Assembly (NCBI GenBank): GCA_023250585.1 | Contig: JAHFAK010000006.1 | Location: forward strand, 21,049-41,386 | Reading direction: 5' to 3' | Length of the DNA: 20,338 bases | Origin: Deltaproteobacteria bacterium | GTDB lineage: Bacteria > Bdellovibrionota_F > JAHFAK01 | Part shown: in pieces, positions 15-13,423 of the stretch | Layout of the letters: the number at the start of each line of letters is the position of its first letter | Position numbering within the stretch: position 1 is the first letter of the stretch | The notes under the pieces: generated by a model | Told to the model about the DNA's origin: nothing | The model's input: the letters and a program-made list of their open reading frames with translations, nothing else | Databases searched by the model: none | Program-made: the position numbers and the translations under genes

Positions 15-1271
15 ATGCAGATTGATAAAACAATAGCACGACGAGTAATTGAAACAGTTGGGGCAAATGGAATTCCACCTGAGGGAGGTTTTGAATACTT
101 CTCTTTTGGTCTTGATAATTATTTAAAACTTTTTGAAAGTGAATATTTTAAAGATTTTATTAAAAATGGCGGTTCAAGTTTTAAGATGATCTTAGGAGCA
201 TACGGCGGAGGAAAAACACATTTTCTCTATTCGCTTCGTGATATCGCCTGGAAAAATAATTTTGTGGTCAGTTATGTATCGCTGAGTGTTAATGAGGCCC
301 CACTTGCAAAGCTCGAACTCGTATATCGAGCGATTATGGCAAACTGCATGCATCCAAGTCCATTTGATGAAGTTATTACGGTGGGTATTGAAAAAGGATT
401 TAACCCAATTCTTACTAAATGGTATCACGATCTTCGTACTGCTCTCCAAGAAAGAAAAGTCCCCAAAGAAGATGAATATGATTTATTTTCAAAAGAAGTT
501 GAAAGCAAACTTGAACTCATCGAAAATGTTAATTTTAAACATGCCATAAGTGCAATTATGGAAAATCTCTTTTATGAACGGCCCGAAAAAGTGAAAGAGA
601 TTTTGCAATGGCTTGGTGGTTTTGGTTACGAAAAGCATGTACACAAACAATATAATATTCTCTATCCCATCACACGGACAAATGCATTTTCAATGATCAG
701 ATCGCTTGTACAATCTGTACGGAGCCTTGGTTACAGCGGATTAATTATTCTCTTTGATGAAGCTGAATCAATTCCAAGTATTTCTACCAGGGAAAAAGAT
801 CTCATGCTGTCAAATCTACGCGAGCTCATTGATTCATGCGCTCAAGTGTCATTTAGCAATGTAATGCTTTTCTATGCAGTGTGCGATGAAAATTTTCTCG
901 AAGGTAAAACACATATTTATGAAGCGCTTAAACAAAGGACATCATCAGTATTTAGCTTTGTTAATCCTAGTGGGGTAAAAATAAATCTCGAAGATCTACA
1001 CAAAGATCCCATTGAGCTTCTCACCGGTATTGGAAAAAATTTATGTTCTATTTATCAAAAAGCATATGAAGCAGATTTTACCACACAAAAGCTCGATGAT
1101 CTTATTACAATCCTTGCAGACAGTGCATTTGAACGTCGCTTTGGCGATATTGGTTATAAGCGCCTTTTTGTTCAAGGGGCAATAAAATTATTTCATTATA
1201 TTCGGTTCTATCCGGATGCAATCCTTGATGCACATGCGATTCATAAATTACTGGATGGTGAGACATTGTGA
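15..1271 (+). CDS. BrxD/DUF2791-like P-loop ATPase (first of two)
   Basis: This is a 418-residue cytosolic P-loop ATPase. Walker A is GAYGGGKT at residues 61-68, followed by a helix with HFLYSLRD. Walker B is LIILFDEAES at about 243-252. A conserved-looking segment LKQRTS at about 305-310 is followed by a P-S-G turn. This arrangement matches the ATP-binding proteins labelled DUF2791 or BrxD in BREX-type phage defence loci, where they accompany an Lhr-like helicase. The next gene starts with GTG overlapping this stop by 4 bases, so the two are translationally coupled and the products probably work together. The role in DNA processing or defence is inferred from the family and the helicase neighbour. 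The substrate and any partner upstream of the window are not visible. The ATPase call is firm; the BREX relationship is moderate. Confidence 0.8.
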   Translation: MQIDKTIARRVIETVGANGIPPEGGFEYFSFGLDNYLKLFESEYFKDFIKNGGSSFKMILGAYGGGKTHFLYSLRDIAWKNNFVVSYVSLSVNEAPLAKLELVYRAIMANCMHPSPFDEVITVGIEKGFNPILTKWYHDLRTALQERKVPKEDEYDLFSKEVESKLELIENVNFKHAISAIMENLFYERPEKVKEILQWLGGFGYEKHVHKQYNILYPITRTNAFSMIRSLVQSVRSLGYSGLIILFDEAESIPSISTREKDLMLSNLRELIDSCAQVSFSNVMLFYAVCDENFLEGKTHIYEALKQRTSSVFSFVNPSGVKINLEDLHKDPIELLTGIGKNLCSIYQKAYEADFTTQKLDDLITILADSAFERRFGDIGYKRLFVQGAIKLFHYIRFYPDAILDAHAIHKLLDGETL

Positions 1272-2605
1272 AAACAAAAAAAGGCGATCGTATTTTCCAT
1301 ACAAAATATGGAGCAGGATTAGTTTTGGGTATACGTTTTGGAGGCTATCGGACGCTCATTCAATTTGATAATGGACTCTCATGCTCGGTTAATACTGATG
1401 AAATCGAAGTGAGTGAAATACACAATGAGACCTCCGACCCCATAAGCACAGTAGCTAACTCACATAGTTATAAAACTGCAATTGAATCATTACGCTTGGG
1501 AATAGTTCCAAATCTTTCTATTAATGAATGGACCTTTGGGCGTGATCACGAAATATCGCAGATTAGTACGTGGCTCCAAGATGAATCGAGTGGCTCATTA
1601 GTGATTGAAGGAGCATATGGATCAGGAAAAAGCCATTTACTCAATTATATATATCATTATGCACTCAAAAATAATTTCATTGTATCATTAAGCAGCATTA
1701 ATCCATTATCATCTCCCATTTCATTTCCAAAGAAAATTTACCGCAATATCATGGATAATCTAGCTTACAAAACTCCGTGGGGGTATGGGAATGTATATGA
1801 TCTTATCTTTACCATTATTAATAGCGGCAGTTATAAACAATTAGAAGATCATAAAATTCTCGGCACGGTTTTTTCTCTCTTTCATGAAACAAAACATATT
1901 GATCTCTTACTTGATTACCTAACCGGTAAAGATATTAAACGTAGAAATTTACAGAAAGAAAATATTGATTTGCCCATGCTTCCTGATCATACCACCGCAG
2001 CAAATGTCTATTGTTATTTACTGAGTGGTATTTCATGGCTCGCCGTTAAATTGTTAGGCTACAATGGATTTCTTATATTACTTGATGAAATGGAAATGGC
2101 TAAAACGTATCGTTACTATTATGAATGGGAACGAGGAACAAATTTTCTCGAAGGTCTTTCATTAGTTGCCAGTGATGAAGATGGAGTTACCGACGAACGA
2201 ATTATTAAAAAAGGTAATGTTAAAAGAGGAACAATTACCAATTTAATTTATTCCGGTTTCACTCCTTTGCCATATGCATATATTGAACCATCATTTCTAA
2301 AAATTATTGTTGGCATTACTCCATCATTTCTACCCTACTTTGCTGGGTTCAAATATGATAAACATATAAAAATCGACAATCTTGATGAAACAGTAATCGA
2401 AAAGGTATTTTTTAAAGTTCTTCAGAGCTATGATGAATTATATGGAGTTCGCCTCAACTACGATGAAAAATTATGGCTTCAGAATTTTATGAGCCATCAA
2501 ACATTTGATTCAACCAGAAGAAAAATTAAAACAGTAATTGAAGCTCTTGATTTCAAAAGATACTACCCTACTCGATCGCTGACCGAGTTAGGAGAATATG
2601 CCTAA
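1268..2605 (+). CDS. BrxD/DUF2791-like ATPase with N-terminal Tudor-like domain
   Basis: This 445-residue protein begins with GTG at 1268, overlapping the previous stop (GTGA). Residues about 6-47 contain GDRIFHTKYGAGLV and then alternating hydrophobics, a pattern seen in the small beta-barrel at the C-terminus of UvrD/PcrA helicases and in CarD-like domains, which bind RNA polymerase or nucleic acid. The ATPase follows: Walker A GAYGSGKS at 115-122 and Walker B FLILLDEMEM at about 268-277. The segment before Walker A, with SLRLGIVPN, resembles the start of DUF2791 proteins. It is therefore a diverged partner of the upstream ATPase with an added interaction domain. Its stop overlaps the helicase start by one base. 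The ATPase assignment is secure. The barrel is a sequence-pattern call, and its binding partner is unknown. Confidence 0.78.
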   Translation: MKTKKGDRIFHTKYGAGLVLGIRFGGYRTLIQFDNGLSCSVNTDEIEVSEIHNETSDPISTVANSHSYKTAIESLRLGIVPNLSINEWTFGRDHEISQISTWLQDESSGSLVIEGAYGSGKSHLLNYIYHYALKNNFIVSLSSINPLSSPISFPKKIYRNIMDNLAYKTPWGYGNVYDLIFTIINSGSYKQLEDHKILGTVFSLFHETKHIDLLLDYLTGKDIKRRNLQKENIDLPMLPDHTTAANVYCYLLSGISWLAVKLLGYNGFLILLDEMEMAKTYRYYYEWERGTNFLEGLSLVASDEDGVTDERIIKKGNVKRGTITNLIYSGFTPLPYAYIEPSFLKIIVGITPSFLPYFAGFKYDKHIKIDNLDETVIEKVFFKVLQSYDELYGVRLNYDEKLWLQNFMSHQTFDSTRRKIKTVIEALDFKRYYPTRSLTELGEYA

Positions 2606-4179
2606 TGGATATACGTGGAGTTAAAAAAAAGCTCCCGCGCGCTTTCTCACTTTTTTTTGGCACTATTGGTACAGTAAATTCCATGCAGCTTGAGGTTATG
2701 CCAAAAATTATTGATGGAATGAACATAGTTCTCATGAGCCCTACCGCCAGTGGAAAAACTGAAGCCATTCTTGCACCACTCGTTGAAAAAATTTTAGATA
2801 TACAAAAAAAGGGGATCAAACTTCTCTATATCACTCCAACGCGAGCGTTAGTAAATGACATGTATGATCGTACTCATGGGCTTATTCGAAAAGCACACCT
2901 TTCTATTGCACGCAAGACAGGAGATCATCCAACACTGAATTCAAAAGATGTCGAAGATATTATTATCACTACTCCTGAATCGCTTGATTCAATGATCACC
3001 CGATACGGACATATCTTTCATACACTACGGGGAGTTGTTTTAGATGAGTTACATTTAATTGATAATACCACTCGCGGAGATCAATTACGCATACTTTTAC
3101 GAAGGCTTGAAAAAGATTACTTAAACGGACAAGCACAATATGCAATACTTTCAGCTACAATTGCTGATCCACTTGCACTGGGCAAAAGATATTTTGATAA
3201 TCCCGTAGTCGTAAAAGCAGGAAAGCCTCGTCCGATTGAATTAACGCTTCATGAGAATCTCAAAAATGCAATTACTGAATGCAAAATAAAAAAATTACTC
3301 AAAATTCTTATTTTTTGTAATACGCGTAAAACAGTTGAAGAACTGATGCAAGAACTTTCATCATTGTGGCCAAAAGACAAGCTCTTTGCGCATCATGGGT
3401 CACTTTCAAAAAAAGAACGTGAAGAAACAGAGAAAGCATTGAAACTTAATTCTTGGGGAATTTGTGTTTCCACGATGACTTTAGAAATTGGTGTGGATAT
3501 TGGAGACATTGACATTGTTATCTTGTATCGGCCACCACATGATTTTTCATCATTTTTACAACGCGTCGGACGTGCATGCCGACGAAAAGATATCATTAAA
3601 ACGATTGGAATTTACGAAAACGATGAGGATAAAGACCTTTTTTTAATATTTGAAAAATTAGCACGTGAAGGAAAAATACTCGCGAGTGAATATGAAGCTG
3701 ATATTTCCGTATGTGTGCAACAAATCTTCTCGCTTTTGTATGGAAAACGGCAAGGTATCGAATCTAATGAACTTGTAAAAATTTTTGAAAATATTTTTTT
3801 ACGTGAAACTGTTCTTCTGATCATTGGCCATTTACAAAAACTTGGATTTCTTACCACGCGCAGAGATAGAATACTGGCCGAAACTAAACTCATTAATTTA
3901 GGGAACTCTGGGCTCATTCATTCAAATATTAGCTGCGCAAAAGAATATACGATTATTAATCAGGCAACGAATGCTCCTATCGGCAAACTCGATTTCTCGC
4001 CTGAATTTGGCAAGTTGATTCTTTTGAAAGGCGCTGCATGGGAGGTTATGCAAATTACTTCAACCAGTGTCTATTGCAAAAAAAGTGCTACACATATTGA
4101 TGCAAAAACATACTTTGCAAAGAAACAAACCCATGGAGCATTCGCCCAATACTTACCAAAGGAATTGCAAAAGGAATAG
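2605..4179 (+). CDS. Lhr-like superfamily 2 DEAD/DEAH helicase
   Basis: This 524-residue helicase shows the SF2 motifs in order: I SPTASGKTE (45-53), Ia TPTRALVND (78-86), II DELH (147-150), III SAT (183-185), IV FCNTR (237-241), V STMTLEIGVDIGDID (289-303) and VI QRVGRACRR (319-327). A region from about 370 to 425 looks like a winged helix. It is followed by a beta-rich stretch with FGKLILLKGAAWEVMQI, as in the Lhr core. It is shorter than full-length Lhr and closer in size to the BrxHI helicases of BREX systems. It should translocate on nucleic acid using ATP; its target is not evident. The ATG at 2605 overlaps the ATPase stop by one base, with GGAG at 2591-2594 as ribosome site. It ends 23 bases from a convergent toxin gene, so the operon probably ends here. 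Confidence 0.85.
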   Translation: MDIRGVKKKLPRAFSLFFGTIGTVNSMQLEVMPKIIDGMNIVLMSPTASGKTEAILAPLVEKILDIQKKGIKLLYITPTRALVNDMYDRTHGLIRKAHLSIARKTGDHPTLNSKDVEDIIITTPESLDSMITRYGHIFHTLRGVVLDELHLIDNTTRGDQLRILLRRLEKDYLNGQAQYAILSATIADPLALGKRYFDNPVVVKAGKPRPIELTLHENLKNAITECKIKKLLKILIFCNTRKTVEELMQELSSLWPKDKLFAHHGSLSKKEREETEKALKLNSWGICVSTMTLEIGVDIGDIDIVILYRPPHDFSSFLQRVGRACRRKDIIKTIGIYENDEDKDLFLIFEKLAREGKILASEYEADISVCVQQIFSLLYGKRQGIESNELVKIFENIFLRETVLLIIGHLQKLGFLTTRRDRILAETKLINLGNSGLIHSNISCAKEYTIINQATNAPIGKLDFSPEFGKLILLKGAAWEVMQITSTSVYCKKSATHIDAKTYFAKKQTHGAFAQYLPKELQKE

Positions 4180-4202: not shown

Positions 4203-4490
4203 TTAGTTGAGGCGTTTCAAAAATGTATGTACATATTTATAAATATCTTTTCGATGATTAATTGCAAACACAGTAATTACTTTTTTAGCACCATTGACAG
4301 AAAATAGAATTCTATAATCTCCGCTTCTCATACGATATACATTTAATCCAATACCCTTAAGTTGTTTAACATTAGAACTTTGAGGAAAGTTTTTTAATGT
4401 TTTAATTTTACTCATACATTGATCAACTGTTTTTTTATCTAATGATACAATATCTTTTTTCAAAACTTCTTCTTTGATATTAATGTGCAT
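4203..4490 (-). CDS. RelE/ParE-type toxin
   Basis: This is a basic protein of 95 residues when started at the ATG at 4490. The body, with IKTLKNFP, VKQLKGIGLNVYRMRSGDYRILF and a final strand VITVFAINHRKDIYK, fits the RelE/ParE fold, whose members cleave ribosome-bound mRNA or poison gyrase. The GDYRILF and NHRKDIY segments are the most diagnostic. A start ten codons further upstream (4520) would overlap the antitoxin gene by 41 bases. The inner start leaves an 11-base overlap, has AGGTG six bases before it and gives the usual family length, so it is preferred. It is the second gene of an antitoxin-toxin pair. Whether it acts on ribosomes or gyrase cannot be told from sequence alone. Confidence 0.8.
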   Translation of the reverse strand: MHINIKEEVLKKDIVSLDKKTVDQCMSKIKTLKNFPQSSNVKQLKGIGLNVYRMRSGDYRILFSVNGAKKVITVFAINHRKDIYKYVHTFLKRLN

Positions 4491-4722
4491 CCGAAGCACC
4501 TTTTTTAATCTTTTTTTCAAATTCAGCTAAGCTCATAGTCTTACTTGCAGCACGTTCAGCAATCATCGAAATCGCCCATTCTTCTTCTGCCATTTCCTCA
4601 AGCCTATTTCTAATTGCTTCCTCGAGAATTTTCGCTTTAATAAGGTTTTTTCGTTTGCAAACCTCTGTAAAAAGTTCAAGCAGCTCGGTATTAATTTTTA
4701 CTGAAAAAGTTTTTACACTCAT
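4480..4722 (-). CDS. Ribbon-helix-helix antitoxin of the RelE-type toxin
   Basis: This 80-residue protein precedes the toxin gene. The N-terminus SVKTFSVKINTELLELFTEVCKR fits a ribbon-helix-helix DNA-binding fold: an alternating strand, then a helix and a second helix with ILEEAIRNRLEEM. The acidic, helical C-terminus with SLAEFEKKIKK would wrap the toxin. Such antitoxins dimerise, bind an operator in their own promoter and neutralise the toxin. A purine-rich AAGGA lies about eight bases before the ATG. A promoter and a palindrome lie just upstream. Pairing with the overlapping toxin gene supports the call; the exact antitoxin family is not clear. Confidence 0.78.
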   Translation of the reverse strand: MSVKTFSVKINTELLELFTEVCKRKNLIKAKILEEAIRNRLEEMAEEEWAISMIAERAASKTMSLAEFEKKIKKGASDAH

Positions 4723-8378: not shown

Positions 8379-9656
8379 GTGAAAAAGAAATTATGTATAG
8401 TATTGGGCGTCCTTATTATAGCAGTTCTTATCCTTTTTTCGCTAGAAACCTGTGAGAAATTAAGCTCGCTTTTTAATGGCCAAAAATCAGAAGATGAAGA
8501 AGATCTTGTTTTTCAAGATACAGACAATAAGGACAAACCTAACTTTAAGATACAAGAAGAACAAAAACCTGCCAATAATGAAATAGTTGATCTCTATAAA
8601 TCAGAATTAGAACCAAAAGAAGAAATTGAACATATAACACCTCCTGCAACTCCACCTCAACCGGCTACACCTCCTCCGCAACCTCCCGTGCAGAATCCTC
8701 CGCCTGCTCCTATAAAAAAGGTAGAAGAAAAATCTGCAGTTGATACTTTTTATAAAAATAATCCCCCTGCTCAAAAACCCACTCATCCGGTAAAAATTGG
8801 CGCTCCAACACCGAAAAAAGAGGTGGCAAAACCAAGAATTGAAAAGCCAAAAAAAATAGCACAAAAATCCAAAGATGTGGGGAAAAAAGTTACACCTATG
8901 CACGTAGAGCAGTCAAAACCTAAAGTTGCAGAAAAACCAAAAAAAGTAAAAAAAGAAAAATCGAAACCTCTTCCACCTGCTCCAGCAACAGATGAAGCAG
9001 CGGAACTTGATTCACTTATATCAAGTATTCCTTTGGAAAAAGAAGAAGCTCCTCTAAAAAAAGAGGATAGTATGCCGAAACCAGAACCCAAACAAGAAAT
9101 ACCCGAAATAGCTGCACCAATGCCAGAAAAAACTCCTGAAAAAGAAAAAGATGCATCAAAAGATTCAGGAGATATTGATCTCGAGAACCTTGGCCTCAAT
9201 GATTTTACTGAGGATACAGGCTTTGTTGAAGAACCAAAGAATTTTGTTCCTACAGAAGCACCTGAAAAAGAAAGCCTCACCGCAGCTGATTACGATAAGT
9301 ATAATATCATTCTTTCGATCACTCCAAAATATGAAGGCTCAATCTTTACTATTGAACTACAGGGAACAAAAGATTTTATTTTAGGTAATCGAAACCCAAA
9401 AGTTACCGCAAAAATATATAAATTGAAGACTCCCTATCGAACAGCGATTGATTTTGTAAATGCCAAATTTGCGAGCATCCCTGAAACAATAGAAATCTCT
9501 CATATCGAATCGCCCATTGAAAAGATTACAACAAAATACTTTGAAGAAAAAGATAAACATCGAACAATTGCACGTGTTGTAATTCACCTCAAAAGACAAG
9601 CTATTTTCAAAAAGGATTTAAAATCGAATACTCTGTTAAAGATTTCGTTTAGATAG
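8379..9656 (+). CDS. Envelope protein with membrane anchor, Pro/Lys-rich linker and C-terminal AMIN-like domain
   Basis: This 425-residue protein starts with GTG after a strong AAAGGAG. Residues 5-22 form a single hydrophobic anchor. There follows an acidic stretch (36-60), a proline-rich stretch (88-111), a long Lys/Pro region (112-200) and an acidic Pro region (205-300). Together these look like a TonB-type extended spacer crossing the periplasm. The last 115 residues (about 310-425) are beta-rich, with IILSITP, IFTIELQG, RTAIDFVN, ARVVIHLK and LLKISF, and fit an AMIN domain. AMIN domains bind peptidoglycan in AmiC amidases and PilQ secretins. The role is probably envelope anchoring, possibly in a pilus, secretion or division complex. 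The gene is divergent from the PEGA kinase. Its last 20 bases are duplicated downstream of the AbiE genes. Confidence 0.7.
   Translation: MKKKLCIVLGVLIIAVLILFSLETCEKLSSLFNGQKSEDEEDLVFQDTDNKDKPNFKIQEEQKPANNEIVDLYKSELEPKEEIEHITPPATPPQPATPPPQPPVQNPPPAPIKKVEEKSAVDTFYKNNPPAQKPTHPVKIGAPTPKKEVAKPRIEKPKKIAQKSKDVGKKVTPMHVEQSKPKVAEKPKKVKKEKSKPLPPAPATDEAAELDSLISSIPLEKEEAPLKKEDSMPKPEPKQEIPEIAAPMPEKTPEKEKDASKDSGDIDLENLGLNDFTEDTGFVEEPKNFVPTEAPEKESLTAADYDKYNIILSITPKYEGSIFTIELQGTKDFILGNRNPKVTAKIYKLKTPYRTAIDFVNAKFASIPETIEISHIESPIEKITTKYFEEKDKHRTIARVVIHLKRQAIFKKDLKSNTLLKISFR
9636..9655 (+). repeat. Left 20-bp direct repeat flanking the AbiE cassette
   Basis: TTAAAGATTTCGTTTAGATA encodes the last six residues (LKISFR) of the AMIN-domain protein and the first two bases of its stop. 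The identical 20 bases recur at 11894-11913. This is a candidate attachment site or target duplication. Confidence 0.85.
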
Positions 9657-9682
9657 CCATAGCACATTAACTTTTCACGGTA

Positions 9683-9704
9683 TCATCTCCACGAAGACGG
9701 GGAT
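9683..9704. repeat. Degenerate REP-like half element
   Basis: The stretch around CCACGAAGACGGGGAT resembles the first hairpin of the REP-like repeat at 20259-20334, with several mismatches, and can still form a weak stem. It lies just inside the left boundary of the AbiE cassette. Confidence 0.35.
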
Positions 9705-9732
9705 AACAAACTCAAATCATCATGATATCTTA

Positions 9733-9761
9733 TTGATTATATTATATTAGTATGCTATATT
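9733..9761 (+). promoter_or_regulatory. Promoter of the AbiE operon
   Basis: TTGATT (9733-9738) and TATATT (9756-9761) are separated by 17 bases in a very AT-rich stretch, 38 bases before the abiEi start. AT-richness makes chance matches likely. Confidence 0.45.
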
Positions 9762-9798
9762 ATTTTTAATTTGTAATTTAACCTAGATATAGGCTTTT

Positions 9799-10581
9799 AT
9801 GGAAATTAAAAATAATAAATCAAAAGCACTAACTTCTCAAGAAATAGACTTGTTATCGTATCTTGAGCTTAAATCAGAGGAAGTTTATACACGTGATGAA
9901 ATAAATGAATTTTTTAATGATAATAAAAAAACCGCTGGATATATTATAAAAAAACTACTCGAAAAAAAACGATTGTTGAGTCTTATCAAAAATACTTATT
10001 TAGTAGTTCCATTGAAAGCACCTCCAGGATTATGGTCAGCTAATGAATATAGTATCGCAAAAAAACTAATTAAAAATAGTACGTACTATATTGGCTACGC
10101 AGGAGTTTTTAATTCCTACGGTTTTACCGAACAAGTCGCTCAGATGGTACATATTCTTAATGATACTTATTCGGGTGAAAAAATAATTCTCGGAATAAAA
10201 TATAAAATGATTAAAGTATTAAAAAATAGATTTTATGGCCTTGAGGAGCGCATAATTGATAATAAAATAGTTGTGTTTCCCAAAAAAGAAAGAGCAATGA
10301 TTGATGTTTTTGAATTTTATAAAAACAATCCAAGAAAAGCATTTAAAATTTTAAACGAACACATAGCAAAACTAAACATTAAAGTTTTTGTAAATTTTGT
10401 TTCAAAATATCCAGTTCAAATTATACGGAGGCGAATTGGCTATTTTCTTAACCAATTAAATATAGTCGATACGTTATTAGATAAAATAGATTCGGGTAGA
10501 AAAGGATATTCTCCTTTGTATGAAAAAATTTCTTTAAAGGGAAGAATAAACAAACGATGGAGAGTAATTATCAATGAATAA
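9799..10581 (+). CDS. abiEi: AbiEi-family antitoxin/transcriptional regulator
   Basis: This 260-residue protein has an N-terminal winged-helix region (about 12-70: EIDLLSYLELKSEEVYTRDEI, then LLEKKRLLSLIKNTYLVV). An AbiEi-type core follows with YYIGYAGVFNSYGFTEQV (97-114) and AMIDVFEFY (166-174). Type IV antitoxins of this family do not bind the toxin protein. They counter its nucleotidyltransferase activity and repress their own operon by binding inverted repeats. The toxin gene overlaps this one by 8 bases (ATGAATAA), and its ribosome site GGAGAG (10559-10564) lies within this coding sequence, so the two are coupled. The ATG at 9799 has only a weak AGG before it. Codon use is strongly biased to A and T, unlike the flanking metG and AMIN genes, consistent with transfer. 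Confidence 0.8.
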   Translation: MEIKNNKSKALTSQEIDLLSYLELKSEEVYTRDEINEFFNDNKKTAGYIIKKLLEKKRLLSLIKNTYLVVPLKAPPGLWSANEYSIAKKLIKNSTYYIGYAGVFNSYGFTEQVAQMVHILNDTYSGEKIILGIKYKMIKVLKNRFYGLEERIIDNKIVVFPKKERAMIDVFEFYKNNPRKAFKILNEHIAKLNIKVFVNFVSKYPVQIIRRRIGYFLNQLNIVDTLLDKIDSGRKGYSPLYEKISLKGRINKRWRVIINE

Positions 10582-11887
10582 AGAACAATTTATTAATATA
10601 ATCAAAATACTTTCGGCAAAAGAAAATTTTAGGCAAGATAAAGTAGAAAAAGACTATTATTTAACTTTAATATTAAATGAAATCAAAGCTAATTTTGGGA
10701 ATGAAATCGCATTCAAAGGAGGGACACTCTTAAATAAAGTTTATCTAAATTATCATAGGCTTAGTGAGGATTTAGATTTTACTTATTCAGGTTCAAAAGA
10801 AATTTTAACACGCTCTCAGAGATCAAATACAATGAAACCTATAAGAGAAAAAATGAAAATTTTAATAAAAAATCTCAATCTAAAATCTAATAATCCAAAA
10901 GGGGAGGGATTTAATAATTCAACTCAGTATTCATTTAGTATATCATATCCTTCTATCATCACTGGAAAAGATGAAGAAATAAAACTTGAAATTGGATTAC
11001 GAAACAAACCAATTGACTCTCTTTTCGAAAACACTGTTTTCCATTTTTATAAATACCCAGTTACAAATAAAAATTTAATTCCAGAAAACAAAATATATAC
11101 ACTATCAGTAAATGAAACAGTAGCAGAGAAGTTAAGATGCGCAATCACAAGAAAAGAAAAAGCTATTCGTGATTTTTATGATTTAAAGAAAATATATGAA
11201 ACGGGTTTTGATTTTAATGATAAAAATTTTCGAACTGTTTTTATAGAGAAACTGAAAGAAGAACATTATAACAATGATTACGCAAATAATTTTGGATTAG
11301 ATGGAAAAACAATATTGGAAATTAAAAAACAAATTAAAGAGGATTTAATTCCGGTAATTAAGTTTGATGAAAATTTTGATTTGGAAGAAGTTTTTAAAAT
11401 GTATAATAAATTGTTTAAAGAAAAAAAAGTGACTAAATGGAGTATTGAAATAAAATGGGCTGATGATCAAAGTGAAAATACTTTCAATCAACGGCTTGGA
11501 AGCAGAGGAATAATTTGGATTGCTCAAATTTATGCAAAAAAAGAACAGTTAAAATCTCGATTAGCTTTTAATATTGAATTTAGTGAAGAATTGATTGCAT
11601 CTAACAAATATTTAAACAAAGAATATCCCAGAAATTATGAAAAGCTAGAAAATCTTTTTGCACATAAAGATACTTTTACGCAATGGATTATTATAAAACT
11701 TGAAAACTTATTTGAAACAAATGAGTTTATGGCTCTTCCCAGAAATGAAGACAGAATAAGAGAAATAGTGTTTGATACTTCTACTTTAAATTGGGCACGA
11801 AATAGTATCGAAAATAATAAAACTAATAAAGGGTATAAAAGTGAAAAAACTGGCGAGAATGCGTTTGAGTTTACTATTAATTACTAA
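10574..11887 (+). CDS. abiEii: AbiEii-family nucleotidyltransferase toxin with long C-terminal extension
   Basis: The 437-residue product has the AbiEii nucleotidyltransferase core. It includes FKGGTLLNK (47-55), SEDLDF (64-69, two catalytic aspartates D66 and D68), a third-strand acidic segment IKLEIGLR (136-143), and ETVAEKLRCAITRKEKAIRDFYDL (181-204), whose lysine and RDFYDL are typical. Family toxins transfer nucleotides, for example to tRNA acceptor ends, and block growth as part of phage abortive infection. The core seems to end near residue 280. Residues about 285-437 form an additional region rich in Lys, Glu and aromatics (KWSIEIKWADD, RGIIWIAQIYAKKEQ, TQWIIIKLENLF) that I do not recognise and that usual AbiEii proteins of about 300 residues lack. 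All core motifs are intact, so activity is expected. Confidence 0.82.
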   Translation: MNKEQFINIIKILSAKENFRQDKVEKDYYLTLILNEIKANFGNEIAFKGGTLLNKVYLNYHRLSEDLDFTYSGSKEILTRSQRSNTMKPIREKMKILIKNLNLKSNNPKGEGFNNSTQYSFSISYPSIITGKDEEIKLEIGLRNKPIDSLFENTVFHFYKYPVTNKNLIPENKIYTLSVNETVAEKLRCAITRKEKAIRDFYDLKKIYETGFDFNDKNFRTVFIEKLKEEHYNNDYANNFGLDGKTILEIKKQIKEDLIPVIKFDENFDLEEVFKMYNKLFKEKKVTKWSIEIKWADDQSENTFNQRLGSRGIIWIAQIYAKKEQLKSRLAFNIEFSEELIASNKYLNKEYPRNYEKLENLFAHKDTFTQWIIIKLENLFETNEFMALPRNEDRIREIVFDTSTLNWARNSIENNKTNKGYKSEKTGENAFEFTINY

Positions 11888-11893
11888 TCGCTT

Positions 11894-11913
11894 TTAAAGA
11901 TTTCGTTTAGATA
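11894..11913 (+). repeat. Right 20-bp direct repeat flanking the AbiE cassette
   Basis: An exact copy of 9636-9655, placed four bases before the metG stop codon (11918-11920). In this copy the frame equivalent to the AMIN gene would close with TAA instead of TAG, so either copy can supply an intact gene end. Confidence 0.85.
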
Positions 11914-11917
11914 AAAA

Positions 11918-13423
11918 TTACTCGAGTTTCGCAAAGAGTATTCTTTTCTCCGCAAGAACCTTGCTTCCCGCCGAATATTTGAAGTCAAAATCTAAATTTA
12001 TATTCATTGTTCCCAATGATTTTCGTATTTCTTGAGCTTTTATGGGAATAAATGGGTCTAGCTGTAAACTTAAAAAGCGTATCGATTCACAAATCATCGC
12101 AAGAGTTTTTTCTCCGCGACTTTTATTACTGTGTTTAAAATCATCCCACGGCTTTCGATCGGTTATGTATTTATTGAGTTCAGCAAATTTTTCAATTACA
12201 TCAAACAGAGCATTCCGTATAGTATAGGATGAAATTTCATCAACATATTTTTTGTTATCTTTGATTATTTCAATAAACTTTTTTTCTTCTGGATCAAACT
12301 CAGTAATCATTGGAATTGTTCCATTGCAGTATTGATTGAGTAGTGTAACGACACGTGAAACTAAATTGCCAATGTTATTCGCAAGAACAGCATTGTTTTG
12401 TTGTTTTAATTCAGCCAGACTAAAATTTGAATCACTTCCCATATGCGCATTGTACATCAAATAAAATCGAAAGACGTCGCTTCCATATTCACGTGACATT
12501 TCAAAAGGATCAATGACATTGCCTAACGTCTTTGACATCTTGTCGCCTTCGACCGTCCACCATCCATGAATGAGTACTTGCTTGGGCAATGAAATTCCAG
12601 CCGATAAAAGAAGCGCTGGCCAAATCACCGTATGAAACCAAGAAATATCTTTTCCAATAATCTGCACATCAGGTGGCCAAAAACGAGCAAATGTTGATGT
12701 CTTTATACCATCAAGCCCCGAAATATAGTTACATAAAGCATCGACCCAAACATAGAGGACATGCTTGTGATCAAAGGGAAATCGTACGCCCCAATCAAAG
12801 CTTGTTCTTGTTATCGACAAATCATCTAATCCTGCTTTTACTCGATTATAGATTTCTGAAAAACGCGTTTGGGGTAAGATAAAGTTGGGATTCTTTTCAT
12901 AATACTCGAGAAGCTTGTCTTGATATTTACCTAATTTAAAAAAATAAGTGTCTTCCTCAAGTTCTCTCACTTCTTGTTGATGCGTAGGACAACGATTACC
13001 ATCAATTAAATCATCCTTTGAGTAATACGCTTCGCATCCAACACAATAAAGACCTCTATATGTACCTGCATAAATATCACCGTTGCTATATATCGACGTA
13101 ATAATCTCGGTAACCACTTTTTTATGAAGATCTGAACTGGTTCTAATAAAATTTGAATTACTTATATTCAACAATGTATTCATCTCTTTGAATTCCTGCG
13201 CACGAGCATCGATAAAATGAGCAAGCGGGCTTCCAGATTTCTGTGCTGCCTCAACGATCTTTTGTCCATGTTCATCGGTTCCGGTAAGAAAAAAAACATC
13301 TTTACCGAATAATCGATGCGCACGTGCAATGACGTCAGCAATAATACTTGTATATGCATGTCCTAAATGAGGTGAGCCGTTGATGTAGTAAATTGGTGTC
13401 GTAAGATACAATGTTTTATTCAT
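11918..13423 (-). CDS. metG: Methionyl-tRNA synthetase
   Basis: This 501-residue class I aminoacyl-tRNA synthetase charges tRNA-Met with methionine. The N-terminal PIYYINGSPHLGHAYT has the HIGH motif as HLGH (19-22). GTDEHGQKI (48-56) follows. A zinc knuckle is present with CVGC (127-130) and CPTH (145-148), so the fourth ligand would be a histidine. KMSKTLGN (295-302) is the KMSKS loop, and the alpha-helical anticodon domain occupies about 350-500. It is a short form without the C-terminal EMAP-like tRNA-binding domain found in some MetG proteins. It lies 17 bases after the outer-membrane protein gene on the same strand, with no clear ribosome site, so it may be co-transcribed and translationally dependent on that gene. 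Function is certain from motifs. Confidence 0.95.
   Translation of the reverse strand: MNKTLYLTTPIYYINGSPHLGHAYTSIIADVIARAHRLFGKDVFFLTGTDEHGQKIVEAAQKSGSPLAHFIDARAQEFKEMNTLLNISNSNFIRTSSDLHKKVVTEIITSIYSNGDIYAGTYRGLYCVGCEAYYSKDDLIDGNRCPTHQQEVRELEEDTYFFKLGKYQDKLLEYYEKNPNFILPQTRFSEIYNRVKAGLDDLSITRTSFDWGVRFPFDHKHVLYVWVDALCNYISGLDGIKTSTFARFWPPDVQIIGKDISWFHTVIWPALLLSAGISLPKQVLIHGWWTVEGDKMSKTLGNVIDPFEMSREYGSDVFRFYLMYNAHMGSDSNFSLAELKQQNNAVLANNIGNLVSRVVTLLNQYCNGTIPMITEFDPEEKKFIEIIKDNKKYVDEISSYTIRNALFDVIEKFAELNKYITDRKPWDDFKHSNKSRGEKTLAMICESIRFLSLQLDPFIPIKAQEIRKSLGTMNINLDFDFKYSAGSKVLAEKRILFAKLE

Follow-up and report, generated by a model that had tools for sequence, protein, structure and literature searches.

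How does a toxin-antitoxin cassette that encodes no recombinase come to lie between two copies of the end of a neighbouring gene and leave that gene whole? This question is raised by a two-gene AbiE cassette at the 3' end of an AMIN-domain gene in a Deltaproteobacteria bacterium (contig JAHFAK010000006.1, positions 21,049 to 41,386). The 20,338-nucleotide stretch analysed here, referred to as the window, contains no N and belongs to a 2.24-Mb draft genome of 164 contigs. The explanation favoured here, with modest confidence, is that a small defence cassette on foreign or divergent-strain DNA was joined beside the AMIN gene by host recombination, without a dedicated recombinase.

The 20-mer TTAAAGATTTCGTTTAGATA is found in two exact copies on the plus strand, at positions 9636-9655 and 11894-11913. 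The left copy comprises the last 20 bp of the target gene (8379-9656, plus strand) except for the final base of the stop codon. This gene encodes a 425 aa protein with a match to the AMIN domain (PF11741, E-value 0.00099) that falls just under the curated cut-off. The right copy begins 6 bp past the stop codon of the AbiEii gene and ends 4 bp short of the end of metG (11918-13423, minus strand; Pfam tRNA-synt_1g, E-value 5.7e-101), which encodes methionyl-tRNA synthetase and is the native downstream neighbour of the AMIN gene, convergent with it. Both copies read LKISFR followed by a stop codon, TAG on the left and TAA on the right, with the final stop base outside the repeat. One codon beyond the 20-mer, the full repeat reaches 23 bp (9633-9655 and 11891-11913) with a single mismatch, CTG/CTT, both of which encode Leu. 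When the flanks are joined in silico, the AMIN gene still ends in LKISFR-TAA, 3 bp from the convergent metG stop. The original prediction had described an exact 20-bp duplication, a gene end preserved by either copy and a cassette with no recombinase gene, and it is borne out on each of these points.

No third site for TTAAAGATTTCGTTTAGATA was found in the window (at most 2 mismatches) or in the whole genome (at most 3 mismatches). The pair is not a chance repeat, as none of 100 dinucleotide-preserving shuffles reproduced it and a rough estimate from base composition gives about 0.0015 such pairs expected per window. It is very improbable that the layout stems from coincidental matches or from mixed strains in a short-read draft. 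The fragmented state of the assembly speaks for such an artefact, as do some of the other repeats described below, which adjoin runs of N. Against it stand the shuffles and the recurrence of the layout in excess over inverted repeats, and the junctions between cassette and repeats were not made by scaffolding, since the window has no N.

The DNA between the two repeats encodes abiEi and abiEii and no other gene. An AT-rich leader (9656-9798, plus strand, 28% G+C) with no match elsewhere in the genome precedes abiEi, which starts 143 bp downstream of the left copy. The first gene (9799-10581, plus strand) encodes an AbiEi-type antitoxin of 260 aa (PADLOC AbiEi PDLC02267, E-value 1.9e-39). The second (10574-11887, plus strand) encodes an AbiEii-type nucleotidyltransferase toxin of 437 aa, with a domain match above the curated cut-off (Pfam AbiEii PF08843, E-value 2.1e-29; PADLOC AbiEii, E-value 5e-35). 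Judged from sequence, a nucleotidyltransferase domain together with an adjacent AbiEi gene identifies the pair as an AbiE (type IV) toxin-antitoxin system, and it is presumably active. It resembles known AbiE systems in being an overlapping antitoxin-toxin pair, the 8-bp overlap being like that of a normal AbiE operon, and differs from them in a C-terminal extension of AbiEii of about 150 aa (window 11429-11884) that has no Pfam match. No solved structure was matched by the AbiEii sequence, and a search of a plasmid collection returned two distant AbiEii matches only. The cassette has a G+C content of 26.6%, compared with 36% for the AMIN gene and metG, and its DNA has no second copy in the host genome. 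The AMIN protein has no relatives in 84,980 species genomes or in the nearest genomes compared, and no relatives of AMIN or AbiEii were found in viral and species genome collections.

The same layout recurs elsewhere in the genome. A repeat scan of 1.38 Mb, in which direct repeats 0.4-9 kb apart were sought, identified about a dozen other small cassettes, each bounded by a direct repeat whose length ranges from 22 to about 250 bp. The flanking repeats are mostly duplicated gene 3' ends, and many of the pairs consist of the end of a housekeeping gene and enclose a small toxin-antitoxin or defence cassette. The proposal of a recombinase-independent, small defence insertion is supported by this series, in which the AMIN case is one of a family. 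A DUF4143 ATPase lies between 67-bp repeats of rpsG, and at thiG a HEPN/MNT pair comes first and a DUF4143 ATPase second, with repeats of about 236 and 130 bp. HEPN/MNT genes are also found at truA (49-73-bp repeat), and a HEPN and a nucleotidyltransferase gene at hppA, which encodes a sodium-translocating pyrophosphatase (138-bp repeat). Further gene ends are those of an nrdB-type reductase (90-bp repeat; DUF4160/DUF2442), a class I aldolase (96-bp repeat; PIN-like pair), the phosphate butyryltransferase gene ptb (103-bp repeat; VapBC) and lepA (52-bp repeat; nucleotidyltransferase-like pair). A DUF4143 ATPase with VapBC lies between 24-bp repeats, and near-identical 48-bp repeats after a peptidase gene enclose a bacteriocin-like operon with genes for an ABC exporter, an HExxH-motif protein and a short peptide (L032, 12985-15783). 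An icmF-like gene carries a HEPN/MNT cassette between 22-bp repeats at its 5' end. The names thiG and icmF-like, like those of the PIN-like (L101) and nucleotidyltransferase-like (L062) proteins, come from the authors' reading of the sequences, and several cassette proteins have no database match.

Direct repeats outnumber inverted ones. Among unique repeats with a minimum length of 18 bp whose flanks are dissimilar, 18 were direct and 4 inverted, and a looser search that allowed at most one copy inside an open reading frame (ORF) gave 25 direct and 5 inverted. The duplications have no motif in common beyond that found in shuffled sequence. Several repeats were set aside as unrelated: a 31-bp direct repeat that is a motif of UvrD-type paralogues (L028), internal repeats of large proteins (L055, L079 and L092), a dispersed 52-bp element at another AbiE pair (L031) and a duplicated tRNA-Asp (L070). 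In the sole genome of the same class that was compared (G001), 0.39 Mb was sampled and the repeats outside ORFs were 2 direct and 1 inverted; a synteny comparison with this genome was dropped because it is too distant, with MetG about 30% identical. A search of open-licence papers found no description of a comparable series across a genome. Dispersed short repeats are also abundant on many contigs, such as GACGTCGCTTCCATA (39 copies) and ACGTGCCCGGCAACT (23 copies), and some lie at cassette edges. Inside the icmF-like insertion there is a long palindrome with remnants of a DUF4143-type ATPase (L033, 6265-6820), which suggests several insertions and decay.

Gene-restoring insertion at 3' ends is the classic layout of tyrosine-integrase elements, and the original prediction had read the AMIN locus as having the layout of site-specific insertion. 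The element could on this account be cis-mobilisable or a satellite, with the repeat as the core of its attachment (att) site and a trans-acting recombinase encoded elsewhere or since lost, a helper that a draft assembly could miss. The series of cassettes makes this improbable and does not support the site-specific label: the targets are many unrelated gene ends, repeat length varies between 22 and about 250 bp, and a common motif is lacking, so a different integrase would be needed for each cassette. The only tyrosine recombinases in the genome are of the Xer type, namely two XerC/XerD-like proteins and one Xer-like fusion protein, no serine recombinase was found in the genome, and the AMIN 20-mer is present at no other site in the genome. 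In the fusion protein (L007, 1174-3411) the Xer-like recombinase domain is joined to a long C-terminal region, and a catalytic tyrosine is not evident by eye. No Ku was found in the genome, and ComEC is encoded in it. Replication slippage, which had been offered as another origin of the duplication, is set aside, as simple slippage makes no foreign insert between the copies.

The differences between paired copies bear on where the second gene end came from. Across nine pairs there are 35 coding differences, 29 synonymous and 6 non-synonymous, an excess with a binomial p of 1e-12 against the 0.25 synonymous fraction expected for random changes (p of 2e-10 with thiG left out). All differences are synonymous in ptb (8/8), hppA (6/6) and lepA (4/4), and the rpsG and nrdB pairs have identical coding portions, with divergence in the sequence beyond the stop codon. 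Since the differences are mostly synonymous, most of the divergence accrued while both copies belonged to working genes, and it therefore arose in different lineages. One of the two gene ends probably came in with the cassette, or a copy may later have been swapped for the allele of another lineage. The AMIN repeat, identical over 20 bp and with one synonymous difference over 23 bp, is too short to decide its origin.

These differences also bear on a true target-site duplication, in which resident sequence of varying length is duplicated at a staggered break, or by a replication template switch that copies the foreign piece and resumes slightly upstream, and no gene end arrives on the cassette. 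Repeat lengths from 20 to about 250 bp, the absence of a common motif among them and the exact identity of the shortest cases all agree with such a process. The thiG locus (L088, 11990-15820) agrees with it as well. Three copies of the gene's 3' end are stacked there, separated by the HEPN/MNT pair and the DUF4143 ATPase, and a 22-bp deletion, absent from the intact gene, is common to copies 2 and 3, as if a decayed resident copy had been duplicated. The pattern shows two successive insertions at one gene end and is consistent with duplication of a resident remnant. However, copies made in this way start out identical and the outer one should decay randomly, yet the differences are mostly synonymous. 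This excess appears to speak against plain target duplication followed by decay in place, and target-site duplication is considered rather unlikely as the explanation of the AMIN insertion. Both processes, the arrival of a donor-borne end and the duplication of a resident one, may occur in this genome. Synonymous divergence between the copies provides a signature by which gene ends brought by a donor can be told from plain duplications of the target, and the test is applicable to any genome.

Under the favoured explanation, joining by host recombination, incoming DNA, presumably acquired by uptake, would pair on one side with the resident end of the gene, where the two have sequence in common, and be joined illegitimately on the other. 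Alternatively, a circle could cross in once through a short shared segment. Either route would leave the last codons of the gene on both sides of the cassette, and its survival would be due to the gene having remained whole. Addiction to AbiE would further favour maintenance of the insertion. The AMIN case may have arisen in the same way as the longer ones. In favour of this explanation are the recurrence of the layout at many gene ends with repeats of differing length, the surplus of direct over inverted repeats, the mostly synonymous differences between paired copies, the lack of a common motif and the gene inventory, with Xer-type tyrosine recombinases only, no serine recombinase, no Ku and a ComEC.

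Several observations weigh against this explanation. The AMIN repeat, at only 20-23 bp, is at or below the usual needs of RecA, its single synonymous difference may be due to chance, and no microhomology stands out at the junctions. Neither a relative with an empty site nor a donor was found in the collections searched. The icmF-like gene, duplicated at its 5' end, is a single exception to the 3'-end pattern. The link to defence genes has evidence on both sides. In its favour, AbiEii, DUF4143, HEPN and PIN loci were collected genome-wide from Pfam searches, and a flanking direct repeat scoring at least 20 was present at 7 of 63 family loci, compared with 14 of 600 control genes (Fisher p of 0.002). 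Against it, the layout is found in only about 11% of the family loci, none of those on contigs outside the earlier reading has it, and the families searched were partly picked because repeats had been seen around them.

By eye, the matches among the control genes were mostly paralogous or internal coding repeats. An earlier scan seeded from repeat-flanked cassettes (11 of 62 loci and 5 of 400 controls) was judged circular and was therefore replaced by the family-based scan. The load of toxin-antitoxin and defence genes is heavy for a 2.24-Mb genome, with 34 matches to DUF4143 (AAA_14-type) ATPases, 15 to HEPN, 14 to AbiEii and 5 to PIN. Within the window, two BrxC/BrxD-type ATPases and a BrxH/SngC-like helicase lie in a row at positions 15-4179, with a RelE/RelB-like pair next to them on the minus strand (4203-4722), and make up another probable defence cluster.

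It is tentatively proposed, as a possibility on the doubtful side, that many toxin-antitoxin and defence cassettes spread in this lineage without any recombinase, through recombination between short duplicated gene ends that accompany the cassette as built-in homology arms. If this is true, a cassette with such arms could insert at the corresponding gene end of a different strain and accumulate there beside other cassettes. It has long been a puzzle how solitary toxin-antitoxin and defence genes spread with neither transposase nor integrase, and one genome here provides a series of insertions with different cargoes at known gene ends.

Among known systems, cis-mobilisable and integrative elements at gene 3' ends restore the gene end and have direct repeats at both edges, and the AMIN locus shares both features. 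It differs from them in that no integrase and no common att core are present, the repeat length is variable and many genes are targeted. In Microcystis aeruginosa, a ParE/ParD-like module downstream of MaOC1 is bounded by a pair of identical direct repeats of 152 bp (PMC7935541). This is likewise a toxin-antitoxin pair just 3' of a gene and fenced by direct repeats, but its repeats are set 14 bp away from the gene instead of lying inside it, and they contain an inverted repeat. Insertion with long, variable target duplication was described after two Helicobacter pylori genomes had been compared, and its cargo was often restriction-modification genes (Nobusato et al. 2000, cited in PMC1643837 and PMC3031569). 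As far as those citing accounts describe it, the likeness is that of a small recombinase-less selfish or defence cassette between variable-length direct repeats of target sequence. The cargo there is restriction-modification, whereas here it comprises AbiE along with further modules of the toxin-antitoxin or defence kind, and the repeats here appear distinct in being mostly gene 3' ends, as short as 20 bp, with copies that differ mainly synonymously. A process similar to the one favoured here is homology-facilitated illegitimate recombination during DNA uptake, proposed for the effector-immunity arrays of the Vibrio cholerae type VI secretion system (PMC5361080), where a homologous anchor on one side, an illegitimate join on the other and successive insertions stacking at a gene end would all have counterparts in this genome. 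Homology-facilitated illegitimate events are predicted to give a deletion at the target (PMC3240628), whereas the gene end is duplicated here. In a test in E. coli, the common product was partial target duplication of 109-950 bp, through plasmid integration by single crossover (PMC3240628).

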